A stretch of 56,567 nt of DNA from a virus: positions 1-56,567 of the IMG/VR virus record IMGVR_UViG_3300030103_000728. One strand, 5' to 3'. A model generated the notes under the pieces. The model saw nothing but the letters and a program-made list of their open reading frames with translations. It did no database searches and was not told where the DNA came from. Position numbers and translations under genes: made by a program. This document shows, piece by piece, positions 3,000 to 9,640 of this stretch; the first letter of the stretch is position 1, and every line of letters begins with the position of its first letter.

Positions 3000-4382
3000 A
3001 TGGCATATTTAGGAAAAGCCCCTAACGGCGCTGCTATACGAGACAGATATATGTTCACTGCTAGTGGCGGTGAAACAAGCATAAGTAGCAGTCAAATAAC
3101 TGGGTTTTCATTTTCTGACGGGAACTTTGTTGATGTGTATATCAACGGGATTTTGTTAGACCCGCGATCTGATTACAACACCAGCACAGCAAACACCATT
3201 GCTGGTCTCTCTGCGTTGTCTGCAAGTGATATTGTAGAAATCATAGTATACGACACGTTTAGTTTGTTTAGCGGCAATGTCACGGGAAACCTTACCGTCA
3301 CAGGGGAGGTCGATGCTGCAACATTAGATATATCAGGTAACGCTGATATTGACGGCGTTTTGGAAACAGACGGTCTTTCAATTAACGGTACTACCGTTAC
3401 ATCAACTGCGGCAGAGCTAAATAACCTTGACGGTGCTACTGCTGGAACTGTTGTAGCATCAAAAGCCGTAGTTGTTGATTCTAACAAAGACGTAAGTTCT
3501 TTTCGTAATATAGGAGTTTCAGGCACCGTTGATGGTCGTGATATATCCACTGACGGAACTAAGTTAGATGGCATTGAAGCAAGCGCAGATGTTACTGACA
3601 GCACAAACGTAGGGGCCGCTCTAACTGGCTTTTCTACAGGCACAGACGCTGTATCGTCTGATTTAATACCTGTTTATGACGTGTCAGCAAGTGCGTGGGA
3701 AAAACAAACCATAGCTAACGCGGCCTTACAGGGGCCAACCGGACCGACTGGTCCAACAGGGCCAACAGGTAGTAATGGTTCTAACGGGTCTCCAGGACCA
3801 ACGGGTCCAACAGGGCCAACCGGCCCGGATGGATCGACTGGACCAACAGGGCCAACCGGCCCAACAGGTAGCAATGGTTCTAACGGGTCTCCGGGGCCAA
3901 CGGGTCCAACCGGACCGACTGGACCGCAGGGTCCAGATTTTGCTTCAGGCACTAGGATGCTGTTCCAGCAATCATCAGCCCCTACAGGTTGGACCAAGGA
4001 TACGAGCCATAACAACAAAGCATTGCGCTTGGTCTCTGGCAACGTCAGTTCGGGAGGTTCCAACAATTTTACAACTGCGTTTGGCACACCATCATTATCT
4101 GGCTCAACTGGCAGCACATCACTGTCTCTTGCACAACTGCCAAGTCACCGTCACGGCGTATCTATAACCGACACTGTTGCTAATACAGGAACAGGAACTT
4201 CTTATGGAAATTCAGTAGCGTCATACACGGGTGCTGGAAACAATATGGGTCACACATCTTCCAGTTTCAGCGCGAAATTTTCGCAAAACCAAGGCTCTGG
4301 CAGTTCACACAATCACTCGATGTCAGGCACAGCAACAATCAATGTTCAATATGTCGATTTCATTATCGCTCAGAGAAACTAA
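3000..4382 (+). CDS. Collagen-like tail fibre 1
   Basis: A 460-residue fibre. Residues 1-90 form an attachment-like domain (..[12 protein letters not shown].., [10 protein letters not shown]). Residues about 95-235 carry the trimeric [17 protein letters not shown] / [10 protein letters not shown] region. Residues about 243-315 are Gly-X-Y repeats, mostly GPT, with a 33-residue block present twice ([16 protein letters not shown]). The C-terminus ([41 protein letters not shown]) is a collar-like tip with His-rich strands. The same architecture recurs in the gene at 8513, at well under full nucleotide identity. Probably a trimeric receptor-binding fibre. Confidence 0.9.
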
Positions 4383-4391
4383 GGACAGAGA

Positions 4392-4691
4392 ATGAAACTA
4401 GAAGTTAAAGACAACTGCCCTTTGAACGGCTTTGAGCCATGCAAGAAATTTGATTGTGCTTGGTTTATACAGATACGCGGCACTAATCCAAACACGGGTG
4501 AGGAAGTTGATGACTGGGGCTGTGCAATGGCTTGGATGCCAATGCTTCTTATTGAGAACGCGCAGCAGTCACGTCAGACAGGCGCAGCCGTAGAAAGTTT
4601 TAGAAACGAGATGGTCAAATCCAATGACCTCAATAGAGACATTTTGATTGCTCAATCCAAACACGATAAAGATATCGTGCTTATCAGTTAA
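4392..4691 (+). CDS. Four-cysteine conserved phage protein
   Basis: A 99-residue protein. The N-terminal half has cysteines in NCPLNGFEPCKKFDCAWF and a fourth in DDWGCAMAW, which would suit a metal site. The C-terminal half is a helix (LIENAQQSRQTGAAVESFRNEM). I recall similar small proteins among fibre genes of marine phages, with no known function. It sits between two fibre genes in the same direction. Confidence 0.75.
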   Translation: MKLEVKDNCPLNGFEPCKKFDCAWFIQIRGTNPNTGEEVDDWGCAMAWMPMLLIENAQQSRQTGAAVESFRNEMVKSNDLNRDILIAQSKHDKDIVLIS

Positions 4692-4716
4692 GTATTTCGA
4701 CACGAGGAATTAAAAA

Positions 4717-5031
4717 ATGGCAAAATACACAATTATTCACGCTGACGGATTCATCAGTAAAGATGGAGCAGGATACAGCGACCTGTCACTAAGCTGGCTA
4801 CCAGACGACATTCTTGCAGTCCAAGCAGCAGCAGATGGATCAGCCGACCTTGAGAAAGGCGTCAGGTCCACACTGACAATCACAGCTAATGAAGATGTTT
4901 CTGATGTAACGTCATTAAGCTGGTGGTCAAATGTAGATACGACATGGCAAGCAGCGTATGACGCTGAACAAGCAGCAATCGCGGCAGCAGCAGCGGCAGC
5001 AGCAGCGGCAGAGGAGGAGGGCGGTGAGTAG
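4717..5031 (+). CDS. Small protein between fibre genes, poly-Ala tail
   Basis: A 104-residue protein. It begins [17 protein letters not shown], contains two Trp-bearing segments ([25 protein letters not shown]) and ends in a poly-Ala run followed by EEEGGE. The Trp-and-helix end resembles fibre-assembly helpers in layout only. Its last bases encode the ribosome site (GAGGAGG) of the next gene and overlap its GTG start. Function not recognised. Confidence 0.65.
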
Positions 5032-6484
5032 CTACATTGGGCCACAGTTCGACATTGTTGGACCAACTGGAGACACCGGACCAACTGGTCCTACGGGTCC
5101 AAATGGGCCTACGGGACCCACGGGTCCAACTGGCCCACAAGGTCCAGCCGGTAATAATGGATCGACTGGACCCACTGGACCCACAGGATCGACTGGACCC
5201 ACGGGTCCGACCGGCCCAACAGGCAATCCATTCGGCGGTGGCACTTTTACTGGTGATGTAACCTTTAATGGCGATGTCGGCATCGGCACTACCAGCGGCA
5301 ACGAAAAATTAAATGTTCAAGGAGCAATAGGCGTATCTGCTGCATCGGCGGCATTTGGAGGCGGATTAGAACGCGCTCTGATGGACTACACTGGCGCTGT
5401 GGTTCGTTTTGGGCATGTAAATGGAGCTTCTGGGAGCGCAAAGCCTGTAACATTTTTAGTCGCCGGAGGAGAGAAGGCCAGATTGGACGCATCGGGTAAT
5501 CTGTTAGTTGGCAAGACTTCATCTGGAATTGGAACAGAAGGCATCGAACTTCGTGCTAACGACGATGTTATGATTACACAGAGTGGTGACACTTGTTTGT
5601 ATCTGAATAGACTGAGCAGCGATGGTGACATAATCGACTTACGCAAAGACGGCACAACGGTTGGTTCAATCGGCGTTGTAAACAATAATAATCCTTTCAT
5701 TGCCAACGATGCCGATAACTCAGGCTTACAATTTGCATCAACCAGTATCTTGCCACATTACGACAGCCTACAGCGTGATAATGCTGTTGACTTAGGTTCA
5801 TCATCGGTGCGTTTCAAAGACGGTTATTTCAACGGAACTTTGAACGCTGGCAGGTTCGCTGGAAAGAGTGACTCAGACACATTCATCGACTTCCAAGGTT
5901 CTGATGTCATGCAGTTTTTCACTGGCAACAGTGAGCGGGCTAGGTTTGACTCTAGTGGCTCACTCAGAATCGGACAATCGTCAACAAATATACCGGGCGT
6001 TGGCAACACGACTTCTGGTATTAGTTTGCGTGGCCATATCGGTGATGCGTTTTTCTCTCGTTCTGGCGGCGATGCTGCTTACTTCAACACAAATTCTGCT
6101 GGGTCTAGCGTTGTAACATTTAGTCTAAGCGGCACGGGTAAGGGCAATGTGGCCGTGAGTTCTGCTGGTGCTACATTTAACACCACCTCAGACATCAGGC
6201 TCAAACAAGACATCGAACCGTTAGTCGCAACAGATAAGCTGATGCAGATGAACCCTGTGTCATACGCTTGGAAGGCTGACCCAGACGGCCCACGTTCTAT
6301 GGGCTTTATCGCCCAAGAGATGGAAGAGGTGATGCCAGAGGCCGTGTCTACTGGCACTGATGATAAGGCGATGATGTCGATGGATTACGGACGCATCACG
6401 CCAATCTTGGTCAGCGCACTCCAAGATGCTCACAGAAAAATTGAAGAATTGGAAAGTCGTATTGCGGCGATGGAGAGTAAGTAA
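5024..6484 (+). CDS. Collagen-like fibre with S74 self-cleaving chaperone
   Basis: The start is the GTG at 5024, preceded by GAGGAGGG; a longer frame begins at 4958 but lies inside the previous gene. The 486-residue protein has Gly-X-Y repeats at residues about 11-66, beta-structured fibre repeats ([20 protein letters not shown].., [14 protein letters not shown]), and a C-terminal peptidase S74 intramolecular chaperone: [12 protein letters not shown] with the expected Ser-Lys dyad, [14 protein letters not shown] and a final coiled coil. In this family the chaperone trimerises the fibre, then cuts itself off. Probable tail spike or fibre. Confidence 0.92.
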
Positions 6485-6831
6485 TGAGTAGTTTCTCACC
6501 AGACCACGAAGGAATAACGTGTCGAATAAATTTAAATGGAACAGGAACTATAAGCGTAAGAAGCAGTTTTAATGTGTCGAGTGTAACGGACAATGGTGCG
6601 GGAGATTACAGCACTAACTTTAGCTCTTCACATAGCGATGCAAACTATACAATGGGTGGATGGTGCGGATATCCGACTTCCAGAGCGATGGTTTTTGGTG
6701 ATGACAGTTCTGGAGTTAGTTATGGAACCGGAGGCTTGAGGATGGAATCGTCTTATATTTCTGGAACGAATGGTGAAGCAACTCCTGACAACGTAACTTA
6801 TTTCAACATGATTATAGCTGGAAACACCTGA
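6484..6831 (+). CDS. Short tail-fibre tip-like protein
   Basis: A 115-residue beta-rich protein. It carries CRINLNGTGTISVRSSFNVS and DNGAGDYSTNF..SDANYTM, the signature of a domain usually found at the C-terminus of phage tail fibres, here as a free-standing gene. It overlaps the stop of the S74 fibre (TAATG), so it may act as a separately made tip or as an S74 partner. Base composition is AT-richer than its neighbours. Confidence 0.7.
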   Translation: MSSFSPDHEGITCRINLNGTGTISVRSSFNVSSVTDNGAGDYSTNFSSSHSDANYTMGGWCGYPTSRAMVFGDDSSGVSYGTGGLRMESSYISGTNGEATPDNVTYFNMIIAGNT

Positions 6832-7250
6832 TGAAAATGCTTTCTAGGTTGTCAAAGTCTTTAAAAGAATTAGAGCCATTTCAGACACAATTCGCTGTTG
6901 TTTATGAAGATATGGATATGGGCCGCTGTGCTGTTATGCACCCAGACCCAAATGCGATGGCTGCATTGATGGCTGGCGGTGTGTTCCCGCCTGTTTGGGT
7001 CTATTGGAAACTGGCAAAAGACGAGGCACAGCCTGATTTCAAACGGCATCACCGTATGCACCTTCTGAGCGACACACCAAGAGAAGGTCCGAAAACAGAA
7101 GAAGAAGCCTTGTTGTATCTCATTATGAAAGATGTGCCACAGCACATCTGGCGCAACTACGAAACCAGCAACAGTGTTCATCTTAAAATCATTAGGCGTG
7201 AACAGCAGCCAGACAGAGAATTTCGCAACGCTTGGAGGGTCGCAGCATGA
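6831..7250 (+). CDS. Hypothetical protein in fibre cassette
   Basis: A 139-residue protein of unknown function. Visible points are an N-terminal basic helix, a central MHPDPNAMAALMAGGVFPP segment and a C-terminal DREFRNAWRVAA. The FRNAW ending is echoed in the next gene (DRHFRNAWALDG), so the two may bind a common partner. Starts in TGATG overlap with the gene before. Confidence 0.7.
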   Translation: MKMLSRLSKSLKELEPFQTQFAVVYEDMDMGRCAVMHPDPNAMAALMAGGVFPPVWVYWKLAKDEAQPDFKRHHRMHLLSDTPREGPKTEEEALLYLIMKDVPQHIWRNYETSNSVHLKIIRREQQPDREFRNAWRVAA

Positions 7251-7603
7251 CCACAATTATTGCAGATAAAGACGGCAATGAGATTGATGCCACATCAGCC
7301 ACAGTTCCAAGCGACAGACATTTCCGTAACGCTTGGGCTTTGGACGGCACGGTCATCACAGAGGACTTGGCAGCAGCTAAGACAATCTTTGCCGACAAGA
7401 TACGCGAAGCCAGAAAGCCGCTGCTAGAGGCGCTAGACGCTGACTACATGAAAGCCCTTGAAGCAAGCGCAGACACAGCCTCAATCGTGGCTGACAAACA
7501 GGCGTTGCGGGATGCCCCGACTGCTGGCAACAGCGCAACAACAATTAGTGAACTTAAAGCAGCTTGGCCTTCCTGCTGCGGCGATAGCCCATACGAGGAG
7601 TAG
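7247..7603 (+). CDS. Fibre-assembly-like protein (FRNAW / IREARKPLLEALD)
   Basis: The chosen start is the ATG at 7247, with GGAGG eight bases upstream, overlapping the previous stop (ATGA). The 118-residue protein has DRHFRNAWALDGTVI followed by a helix AKTIFADKIREARKPLLEALDADYMKALE and KQALRDAP. That series is typical of small phage proteins next to tail fibres that are often called fibre-assembly proteins. The assignment is by motif memory and context. Confidence 0.75.
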   Translation: MTTIIADKDGNEIDATSATVPSDRHFRNAWALDGTVITEDLAAAKTIFADKIREARKPLLEALDADYMKALEASADTASIVADKQALRDAPTAGNSATTISELKAAWPSCCGDSPYEE

Positions 7604-7606
7604 ACA

Positions 7607-7954
7607 ATGGCAAATTCATACGAGTGGACATATCCACAACTTGACCGTGTGGCAACTGAAGGCGACAAATCTGACGTTGTAAAAACAATTCACTGGCGCG
7701 TTACTGCGACTAGCGACAGTGACAAAGATGCTGACGACAACTTCCTGACAGCCACAATGTACGGCACAACTGGTGTAGAGATGGAAGACGGCGCAGAGTT
7801 TGTGGCATATAATGATCTAACCAAGGACTGGTGCAAAGCCAAAGTTTTGGCTGACATGGGCCAGACTGAAGATGAAGTCAAGTCAGCATTAGATGCCGAC
7901 ATTGCAGAAAAAGCCAGTCCCTCCATTTTAACAGGAACCCCATCAGGGTGGTAA
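7607..7954 (+). CDS. Conserved phage protein with VKTIHWRV motif
   Basis: A 115-residue protein starting MANSYEWTYPQLDRV and containing DVVKTIHWRVTAT, MYGTTGVEME and a C-terminal helix. Similar short proteins (VVxxVHWR) occur beside tail-fibre genes in many phages, without known function. It has a GAGGAG ribosome site and is followed by the oxygenase gene 7 bases later. Confidence 0.7.
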   Translation: MANSYEWTYPQLDRVATEGDKSDVVKTIHWRVTATSDSDKDADDNFLTATMYGTTGVEMEDGAEFVAYNDLTKDWCKAKVLADMGQTEDEVKSALDADIAEKASPSILTGTPSGW

Positions 7955-7961
7955 TTGCTTA

Positions 7962-8510
7962 ATGAGAAATACATGGCAAATGTGGACCGGTGGAGTCTCT
8001 GAAGACCTTATTGAGGCTATAGAAAAAGAGGCTGCTTTAGTTTCAGGGCAAGAAGCTGGTATTTTTGCTAGTTCTGAGAGCGCCCCTGATATCCGCAGAT
8101 CTAATATTAAATGGTTGACGCACAATAATTTTGTGTCAGATCTATTATGGGGTTATGTACAAGAGGCAAATAGAAATGCTTTTGGAGTTGATGTTACGCA
8201 AGTGGCTGATATTCAGTACACAGAATATCACGCATCGGAGCAAGGTCATTACGGACTTCACCACGATATACACTGGCAATCGGATAAGGCTTTCGACAGA
8301 AAGTTATCAGTTACTGTTCAGTTATCATCTCCTGAAGATTATGAAGGCGGAGATTTTTCATTTTCAGAGGTAGAGACTCCCCCGAAAGAATCTAAAGTTA
8401 AAGGGACGATATTAGTGTTTCCAAGTTATTTGCAACATTCAGTAATGCCTGTAACTAAAGGTGTTAGAAAATCTTTGGTTGCATGGTTTGAAGGACCAAG
8501 GTGGAGGTAA
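7962..8510 (+). CDS. 2-oxoglutarate/Fe(II) oxygenase, prolyl-4-hydroxylase-like
   Basis: A 182-residue protein with the full ligand set of the superfamily. The HxD iron motif is His100-His101-Asp102 in YGLHHDIHW, the distal iron His is His159 in FPSYLQHSV, and Arg169 with Ser171 in GVRKSLVAW should bind 2-oxoglutarate. These enzymes hydroxylate protein or small-molecule substrates using oxygen and 2-oxoglutarate. The form resembles PKHD/PiuC-type prolyl-hydroxylase-like enzymes common in marine phages. It lies directly before a collagen-like fibre gene and within 5 kb of two others. The gene is AT-richer than the virion genes, suggesting separate acquisition. Confidence 0.9.
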
Positions 8511-8512
8511 AA

Positions 8513-9640
8513 ATGACTAGGGCGCGTGATCTATCTAAACTATTAAATGGCGGGGTAGCTGATCTTTCTGTTACAGGTGAGATAGATGCGGCTACTCTTG
8601 ATCTCTCTGGTAACGCAGATGTAGATGGAACTCTAGAAACTGATGGTCTTTCTATTAACGGTACAACAGTAACCGCTACAGCCGCTGAATTAAATTACAG
8701 TGATACTGGTGCTGCTGTAGGTACTGTAGTTGCGAGTAAAGTTGTAACGACAGATGCAAATAAAGACGTAGATGGGTTTAGGAATGTTTCTTTAACAGGA
8801 ACTGTAGATGGGCGCGATGTATCTACTGACGGTACAAAACTAGATGGGATTGAAGCCTCTGCTGATGTTACTGATGCGGCTAATGTAGGGTCTGCGCTTA
8901 CATCCTTTTCAACAGGCACTGACGCAACTTCGTCTGATCTTATTCCAGTTTATGATGTTTCTGCTAGTGCTTGGGAAAAGCAGACTATAGCTAATGCCGC
9001 TTTGCAAGGCCCAACAGGATCGACTGGCCCTACGGGTCCAGATGGTCCTACGGGTCCACAAGGACCAGCAGGCAACGATGGCTCTACCGGCCCAACAGGA
9101 CCGACTGGCCCAACAGGACCAACAGGACCCACTGGATCAGCCGGGGGCACAGGACCAACGGGTCCAACAGGACCGACTGGCCCACAAGGACCGGACTTTG
9201 CGTCTGGAACGAAGATGGTATTTCGTCAGTCATCAGCCCCGACAGGCTGGACAAAGGACACAACACAGAACGATGCTGCTCTTCGTGTTGTCTCTGGAAA
9301 TATTGGAACCGGCGGCTCAGTAGGACTGTCTTCAGCTTTAGCAACGCCTTCACTGTCTGGCTCGACTGGCAGCACATCAATTTCAACAGCACAAATGCCT
9401 AGTCACAACCATGTCCTCTACGTCCAGAATCAGTCTGGAAATCAAGGCTTGCAGGGCGCAGGAAGATTTGCTTCTTACGCACCGGGCGCAATGGGGCACA
9501 ATGGATCGGGCGGTAGTACAACGAACAATACGTCATTGATGGGCAACAGTGGTTCAGGAAGTTCTCACAATCACTCCATGAGCGGCACAGCCACAATAAA
9601 CTGTAAGTATTGCGATATCATCATCGCCGCGAGGAATTAA
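8513..9640 (+). CDS. Collagen-like tail fibre 2
   Basis: The start is the ATG at 8513, six bases after GGAGG. The 375-residue protein has no N-terminal attachment domain and begins almost at once with the trimeric [17 protein letters not shown] / TAAELNYSD region. Gly-X-Y repeats follow at residues about 165-228, then a tip ([41 protein letters not shown]). It is paralogous to the fibre at 3000, with many synonymous differences and a different tip centre, pointing to an old duplication or import. It may form the distal part of a two-piece fibre or an alternative receptor binder. Confidence 0.9.

Follow-up and report, generated by a model that had tools for sequence, protein, structure and literature searches.

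A prolyl-hydroxylase-type oxygenase in a marine bacteriophage and the proline of neighboring collagen-like tail fibers

An oxygenase gene that lies among genes for collagen-like tail fibers raises the question of what such an enzyme would modify. We analyzed this arrangement in the IMG/VR virus record IMGVR_UViG_3300030103_000728 (hereafter the window, meaning the whole stretch of 56,567 bases), which is DNA of a marine bacteriophage and carries the genes of a tailed phage, including a family A DNA polymerase, an SU10-like portal, a terminase, and capsid proteins. The oxygenase, which together with its relatives we label c1, is a member of the 2-oxoglutarate (2OG)-Fe(II) dioxygenase superfamily. 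A first-pass annotation of the sequence had placed it near three fibers with long Gly-Pro-Thr (GPT) repeats and suggested that it hydroxylates Pro or Thr in them. The three fibers are indeed present within 6.6 kb (3000-9640), and their Gly-X-Y runs together hold 63 triplets, of which 46 have Pro and none has Lys at X, 42 have Thr, 3 have Pro, and none has Lys at Y, and 35 are GPT; the runs are, however, of moderate rather than great length (57-69 residues). As predicted from sequence and modeled structure, c1 probably hydroxylates the X-position Pro of the phage's own collagen-like fibers.

In the proposed mechanism, c1 would use O2, 2-oxoglutarate, and Fe(II), and would act during fiber synthesis in the host cytoplasm, ahead of triple-helix formation in the collagen-like stretch. 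Its target would be the X-position Pro of Gly-Pro-Y triplets, mostly Gly-Pro-Thr, in the phage's three tail fibers, and the outcome would be a tuning of triple-helix stability in the fiber stalk. What we infer is the reaction itself, the carbon that it hydroxylates, when it takes place, and how it affects the fiber. In peptides studied by Bann, Mizuno and Baechinger, (Gly-4Hyp-Thr)n is said to be triple-helical and (Gly-Pro-Thr)n not; on that lead, Hyp at X followed by Thr would be stabilizing. We assign c1 as the putative fiber prolyl hydroxylase because of its ligands and fold, its tight linkage to Pro-rich repeats, and the way in which fiber Pro follows c1. This assignment finds further support in the relatives, since the neighbor of c1 there is itself a homologue of collagen enzymes.

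That neighbor, a fused glycosyltransferase/lysyl-hydroxylase-like protein of 400-620 aa which we label c2, follows c1 in many relatives and is absent from the window. Fiber composition was compared between phages with c1 only, with both genes, and with c2 only, using clusters at 85% identity and no filter on Pro; the c2-only set was enlarged by a scan with the c2 of Roseobacter phage CRP-6, and survey counts here and below are among the matches listed (80-120 per search). With both enzymes, fibers have Pro at X (0.10-0.52) and Lys at Y (0.16-0.44) in 27/27 clusters. With c1 only, X-Pro is 0.23-1.0 in 28 of 30 clusters, while Y-Lys stays at 0-0.04 in all 30, none of which reaches 10% Lys at Y, and Y-Pro never exceeds 0.13; the other two clusters (L075, L105) have short Gly-rich runs of 13-14 triplets with no Pro. 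With c2 only, all seven clusters combine X-Pro of 0-0.05 with Y-Lys of 0.23-0.34, as in CRP-6, whose fiber (GATGATGAKGQKGE...) is Lys-rich and almost Pro-free. Thr at Y is common to all three classes, and because it remains at 0.26-0.48 in c2-only fibers it does not follow c1. When mapped on a c2 tree, the absence of c1 requires four changes, one of them a locus whose fiber is out of view (L364), and a phage lacking c1 (L430, X-Pro 0.01) lies within a clade of c1-bearing phages such as L426 (X-Pro 0.29). Fiber X-Pro thus follows c1 and not the neighboring lysine enzyme, the Lys at Y goes with c2, and c1 tracks Pro, not Thr or Lys. The "Pro or Thr" of the first-pass annotation can accordingly be narrowed to Pro, as Y-Thr is equally common in phages without c1. 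Lys was considered as a target of c1 and rejected, the window and all c1-only fibers being almost devoid of it.

The physical linkage of c1 and collagen was surveyed in at least 80 IMG/VR loci with c1 relatives, in which collagen runs were sought in every open reading frame (ORF) and which were clustered at 85% identity. Among viral clusters whose c1 is at least 50% identical to that of the window, Pro-rich collagen lies nearby in 18/18 that could be judged (at least 3 kb on each side; four could not be), and at 40-50% identity nine clusters have collagen and five do not. The distance between c1 and collagen, over 42 clusters with collagen, has a median of 1.1 kb and a maximum of 3.5 kb. When relatives were instead chosen through a tail protein, with at least 6 kb visible upstream, 34 had neither c1 nor collagen, one had both (L100), and one had c1 only (L105). 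Viral loci chosen by repeat type differ as well, with c1 in 1 of 70 loci with (GAT)4 arrays, that one having X-Pro of 0.25, versus 8 of 71 with (GPT)4 arrays.

A cellular parallel is found in Sphingobium and Novosphingobium, where a (Gly-Pro-Y)n gene of lipoprotein-like type shares the contig with a c1 relative, at a distance of about 0.4-3 kb. A survey of 94 Sphingobium genomes, which compared a strong c1 match with a (GPX)7 DNA match, found the former in 15 and the latter in 16: the repeat gene is present in 15/15 genomes with c1 versus 1/79 of the others, and in that sole mismatch (G036) the first bases of the contig coincide with the expected end of c1. Two Sphingobium genomes with two c1 genes have a second GP-repeat locus beside the second c1. 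X is Pro in 91-100% of the Sphingobium triplets, and Y varies among Thr, Ser, Gly, Ala, Asn, and Asp. In an Erythrobacter metagenome-assembled genome (MAG), a GP(A/Q/D) gene stands directly upstream of c1. A chance neighborhood is ruled out by the linkage in phages, by the relatives chosen through the tail protein, and by presence and absence in Sphingobium. The co-occurrence survey that had been proposed as a check on the first-pass annotation was run and came out in its favor, through the strong phage linkage, the near-perfect match in Sphingobium, and the double dissociation of fiber Pro and Lys.

These comparisons bear directly on two other explanations. The first is that c1 hydroxylates Thr or another Y residue, perhaps for the attachment of sugar. 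In its favor, no triplet in the window is as frequent as GPT, and every Pro-rich repeat associated with c1 contains some Thr, the lowest fraction being 0.15 (Erythrobacter L294); but fibers of c2-only phages keep their Y-Thr and lose Pro, c1 is rare beside GAT arrays compared with GPT arrays, the Sphingobium repeats keep Pro at X while Y varies, and no glycosyltransferase was seen in the fiber region of the window, so that the explanation is improbable. Thr as the target of c1 is disfavored by the c2-only fibers and the GAT arrays. The second is that the substrate of c1 lies elsewhere in the virion, for instance in a globular fiber tip or other structural protein, with collagen as merely a frequent neighbor. 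The position of c1 in the tail-fiber region, the homologues with no collagen run near them (L105, L075, L076), and the build-up of many enzymes in that variable part of cyanophage genomes would all fit, yet the loss of X-Pro in c2 phages lacking c1 would be left unexplained, as would the pairing in Sphingobium, where the partner is a lipoprotein and no phage fiber; we give this explanation a small chance of being right.

The identity of c1 was examined by domain, residue, and fold. The oxygenase of the first-pass annotation, which is encoded at 7962-8510, was confirmed with all of its ligand residues, namely H100, D102, and H159 (the HxD...H iron triad) and the basic 2OG-binding R169, and it matches PF13640 2OG-FeII_Oxy_3 (E=1.2e-13, 52.3 bits against a curated cut-off of 27) and phrog_61 "2OG-Fe(II) oxygenase" (E=8.9e-29). 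Across 32 aligned relatives none of the four ligands varies, nor do W175, R113, and Y89, and Y97 is nearly invariant; c1 thereby fits what we take to be the prolyl-hydroxylase motif of PHD2 and algal prolyl 4-hydroxylase (P4H), Y-x2-H-x-D with a W six residues past the 2OG-binding residue. Apart from PF13640, the Pfam search of c1 gave a weak match to PF13759 and none to the C-terminal domain PKHD_C, c1 ending at its catalytic domain; nor is the window's c1 a fusion of GT_PLOD and hydroxylase domains. An AlphaFold2 model (mean predicted local distance difference test, pLDDT, 91.5) gave 373 Foldseek matches in the PDB at E<=0.001, the top ones being double-stranded beta-helix folds. The best was Pseudomonas putida P4H (4iw3, 5.8e-11); the collagen prolyl hydroxylase vCPH of PBCV-1 (5c5t) scored 1.1e-10 with a template-modeling (TM) score of 0.72/0.73, other leading matches included the algal P4H with (Ser-Pro)5 (3gze) and PHD2, and the PKHD protein Sbal_3634 (3dkq) was interspersed among the top prolyl hydroxylases. 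Because these are the top matches by fold, and because its neighbors by sequence are PKHD-type proteins, vCPH, and algal P4H, c1 is classed, from model and sequence, as a prolyl-hydroxylase-type oxygenase that forms its own family. Modification of DNA or nucleotides by c1 was rejected, as PHROG matches to such families are weak and by fold c1 resembles prolyl hydroxylases.

The same searches could be read as those of a host-takeover or metabolic oxygenase, e.g. an EF-Tu hydroxylase resembling P. putida P4H or a PiuC-like iron-uptake factor. The best PDB sequence matches are PKHD/PiuC proteins, the best fold match was solved with EF-Tu, PHROGs classes the family as auxiliary metabolic, and basal Rhodobacteraceae and SAR116 homologues lack collagen; this reading is nevertheless very improbable, given that c1 is tightly linked with collagen genes in two independent settings, phages and Sphingobium, and given the dissociation of c1 and Pro and the lack of a Pfam PKHD C-terminal match. 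It is likewise very unlikely that fiber and oxygenase simply travel as a recombining cassette with no functional contact, as the mosaic nature of fiber cassettes, the joint recurrence of c1, the small ORFs c3 and c4, and the fiber, and the relatedness of clusters by descent might suggest, since neither a residue-level match of fiber and enzyme over many clusters with repeated gains or losses nor a separate chromosomal pairing in Sphingobium would be expected.

Several observations weigh against Pro hydroxylation of fibers as the role of c1. Viral loci chosen by the (GPT)4 DNA pattern have a related oxygenase in just 10 of 76, the other 66 having no c1, and for this reason we conclude that c1 usually implies collagen while the converse fails, hydroxylation not being obligatory for GPT fibers. 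Collagen is absent from the neighborhood of c1 in a basal clade that includes Rhodobacteraceae, from view in the single viruses L076, L079, L291, and L293 and in L308, all with a c1 homologue, and, as judged by Pfam Collagen matches, from the assemblies of SAR116-like MAGs (L295-L298) with c1 at 47-52% identity. The Fisher tests of fiber composition (7e-17 for Lys versus c2; 2e-7 for Pro versus c1 among c2 carriers) ignore shared descent and are thus no true probabilities. The solved proteins nearest to c1 by sequence are PKHD-type (Sbal_3634 and PiuC), with vCPH and algal P4H next; the c1 family profile matches Sbal_3634 at 3.4e-12, PiuC at about 3e-9, and vCPH at 1.1e-5, so that the caution in the first-pass annotation about PKHD-type relatives was fair. 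Mammalian collagen P4H acts mainly on Y-position Pro. Unlike the substrate of that enzyme, the presumed substrate of c1 is nearly devoid of Y-Pro, and here too the first-pass annotation, which had warned that Pro is at X in the window, was right to be careful. X-position Pro is not disqualifying, because the P4H of Bacillus anthracis reportedly hydroxylates Pro at either position in (PPG) peptides (PMC8968730). In two myxobacterial/deltaproteobacterial MAGs, collagen is absent beside c1 yet present elsewhere, in one of them in great abundance. The wider c1 family may include other substrates.

Three side observations follow. The Myxococcales MAG G007 (L300, L352-L362) has 67 Pfam Collagen matches, a 2387-aa open frame being among them, together with a c1 homologue, and is a collagen-rich bacterium. 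In Synechococcus phage Sf-CH11 (L291:7319-8875), an annotated tryptophan 7-halogenase stands amid 2OG oxygenases in a structural region that lacks a nearby collagen run. Some cyanophage records, NC_021530 and NC_015283 among them, label 2OG oxygenases "ferrochelatase" (phrog_3531), likely a misannotation through apparent transfer of a PHROG name.

The second enzyme places c1 in a broader setting. The domains of c2 comprise a PLOD glycosyltransferase (6.5e-44), GT25 in long forms (5e-18), and a C-terminal 2OG oxygenase, and its matches include human LH3 (4.7e-37), COLGALT1 (procollagen galactosyltransferase 1, about 1e-16), and mimivirus R699 (4e-24). Eleven phage records carry c2, and the c1+c2 cassette is also found in cultured Synechococcus phages S-CAM9, S-PRM1, and S-8S55, where c2 is annotated mostly as a hypothetical protein or 2OG oxygenase. 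We lean, with some reserve, toward a general scheme in which phages carry modular, residue-matched collagen maturation: c1 would yield hydroxyproline at X, c2 would yield glycosylated hydroxylysine at Y, fiber Pro and Lys would evolve with gain and loss of the enzymes, and c1 would also pair with the Sphingobium lipoprotein. Neither the altered stiffness nor the glycosylation suggested in the first-pass annotation finds support in the window, whose fiber region shows no glycosyltransferase (not every window ORF was scanned); in relatives glycosylation would concern Lys, through another enzyme. As separate observations, an FkbM-type methyltransferase that might methylate a fiber sugar directly follows c2 at L033:12278-12823 (by Pfam) and at L426:10670-11218 and L430:10834-11379 (by resemblance), and fiber cassettes of this kind hold further oxygenases (2OG-FeII_Oxy_5 and 2OG-FeII_Oxy_3, at L055:4567-5133 and L289:8393-9004) and an unassigned protein (L055:5151-5801).

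Table 1. Coordinates of c1, the collagen-like fibers, and neighboring ORFs in the window, and of related genes at other loci.
Feature	Position	Strand	Support
c1, 2OG-Fe(II) oxygenase, predicted prolyl hydroxylase for Gly-Pro-Y repeats, 182 aa	7962..8510	+	PF13640, phrog_61, ligands, AlphaFold, Foldseek
Collagen-like tail fiber 1	3000..4382	+	Pfam Collagen 3.7e-13
Gly-X-Y run of fiber 1, 23 triplets, predicted substrate	3732..3938	+	
Collagen-like tail fiber 2 with C-terminal S74 intramolecular chaperone domain	4958..6484	+	Peptidase_S74 9.4e-18, Collagen 1.7e-8
Gly-X-Y run of fiber 2, 19 triplets, predicted substrate	5060..5230	+	
Collagen-like tail fiber 3	8513..9640	+	Pfam Collagen 1.1e-6, tail fiber PHROGs
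Gly-X-Y run of fiber 3, 21 triplets, predicted substrate	9008..9196	+	
c3, small ORF recurring beside c1	6831..7250	+	cluster c3 in L003, L018, L027, L100, others
c4, small ORF recurring beside c1	7247..7603	+	phrog_20196 2.3e-27; weak phrog_4912 "tail fiber assembly" 0.0015
DUF7936 protein, directly 5' of c1	7607..7954	+	PF25590 9.2e-22
c2-type fusions of GT25, PLOD-type glycosyltransferase, and 2OG oxygenase	L100:5762-7624; L072:9890-11725; L289:9555-11399 (S-CAM9); L363:8926-10695 (CRP-6)		
Chromosomal pairs of c1-type oxygenase and (Gly-Pro-Y)n lipoprotein-like gene, Sphingobium	L301:8001-10453; L305; L341, L342		

The immediate upstream neighbors of c1 in the window are small ORFs of the fiber region (Table 1). 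All three fibers pass the curated cut-off of 27.2 bits for Collagen (PF01391) with scores of 28.7-49.5; for fiber 3 a start at ATG 8513 is more likely than one at GTG 8501, which is possible. The N-terminal stretches that run up to the GPT repeats are closely alike in fibers 1 and 3, which suggests a fiber duplication flanking the oxygenase.

In an account of phage collagens by Ghosh et al., bacteria and viruses were said to lack the needed prolyl hydroxylases (PMC3368898), and virus-encoded collagen hydroxylases are already known from PBCV-1 and mimivirus (PMC9614988). Hydroxylation of collagen and glycosylation of its hydroxylysine are regarded as traits of animals (and giant viruses), and the literature searched, itself incomplete in coverage, contained no account of bacteriophage cassettes that modify collagen. 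Baltic Sea viromes contain an abundant viral "P4HA" auxiliary gene, for which tail-fiber collagen was mentioned and the use termed "cryptic" (PMC9301287); the accessible portion of that report gives no linkage test for the phage-encoded P4H, whereas linkage and residue matching are combined here. A phage enzyme whose presence predicts fiber Pro would give this "cryptic" gene a concrete function. The question is directly testable in cultured phages, with S-CAM9, S-PRM1, and S-8S55 carrying c1 and c2 and CRP-6 carrying c2 only, and the family puts compact bacterial enzymes on offer for the production of hydroxylated collagen.

Animal collagen P4H binds 2OG through a lysine, where c1 has the invariant Arg at 169. 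PKHD-type proteins (Sbal_3634, PiuC/YbiX) resemble c1 in sequence across the catalytic domain, but c1 differs in having no Pfam PKHD C-terminal match and in its association with collagen genes. The vCPH of PBCV-1 is, like c1, a small, virus-encoded, single-domain 2OG prolyl hydroxylase; unlike c1 it belongs to a eukaryotic virus, and with 17-20% identity over the aligned fold it stands apart from the phage and bacterial family of c1 (the C-terminal part of phrog_61). The B. anthracis P4H, considered together with BclA, can hydroxylate X-Pro as is predicted for c1, and the collagen-like proteins of bacteria resemble the fibers of the window in carrying much Pro at X and much Thr at Y (PMC8968730); unlike that P4H, c1 adjoins the gene of its presumed substrate, whose repeats are nearly without Y-Pro, and no B. 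anthracis P4H chain was among the sequence-search matches to the c1 family profile. Mimivirus L230, a lysyl hydroxylase/glucosyltransferase, joins an N-terminal glycosyltransferase domain (GLT25D1-like) to a C-terminal lysyl hydroxylase, and the collagen-like proteins of that virus are modified (PMC9614988). The window is unlike it in having no c2, a c1 without glycosyltransferase, and fiber repeats without Lys; the c2 of related phages combines the same kinds of domains, and L230 offers a viral precedent for modifying collagen-like proteins of the virus itself.
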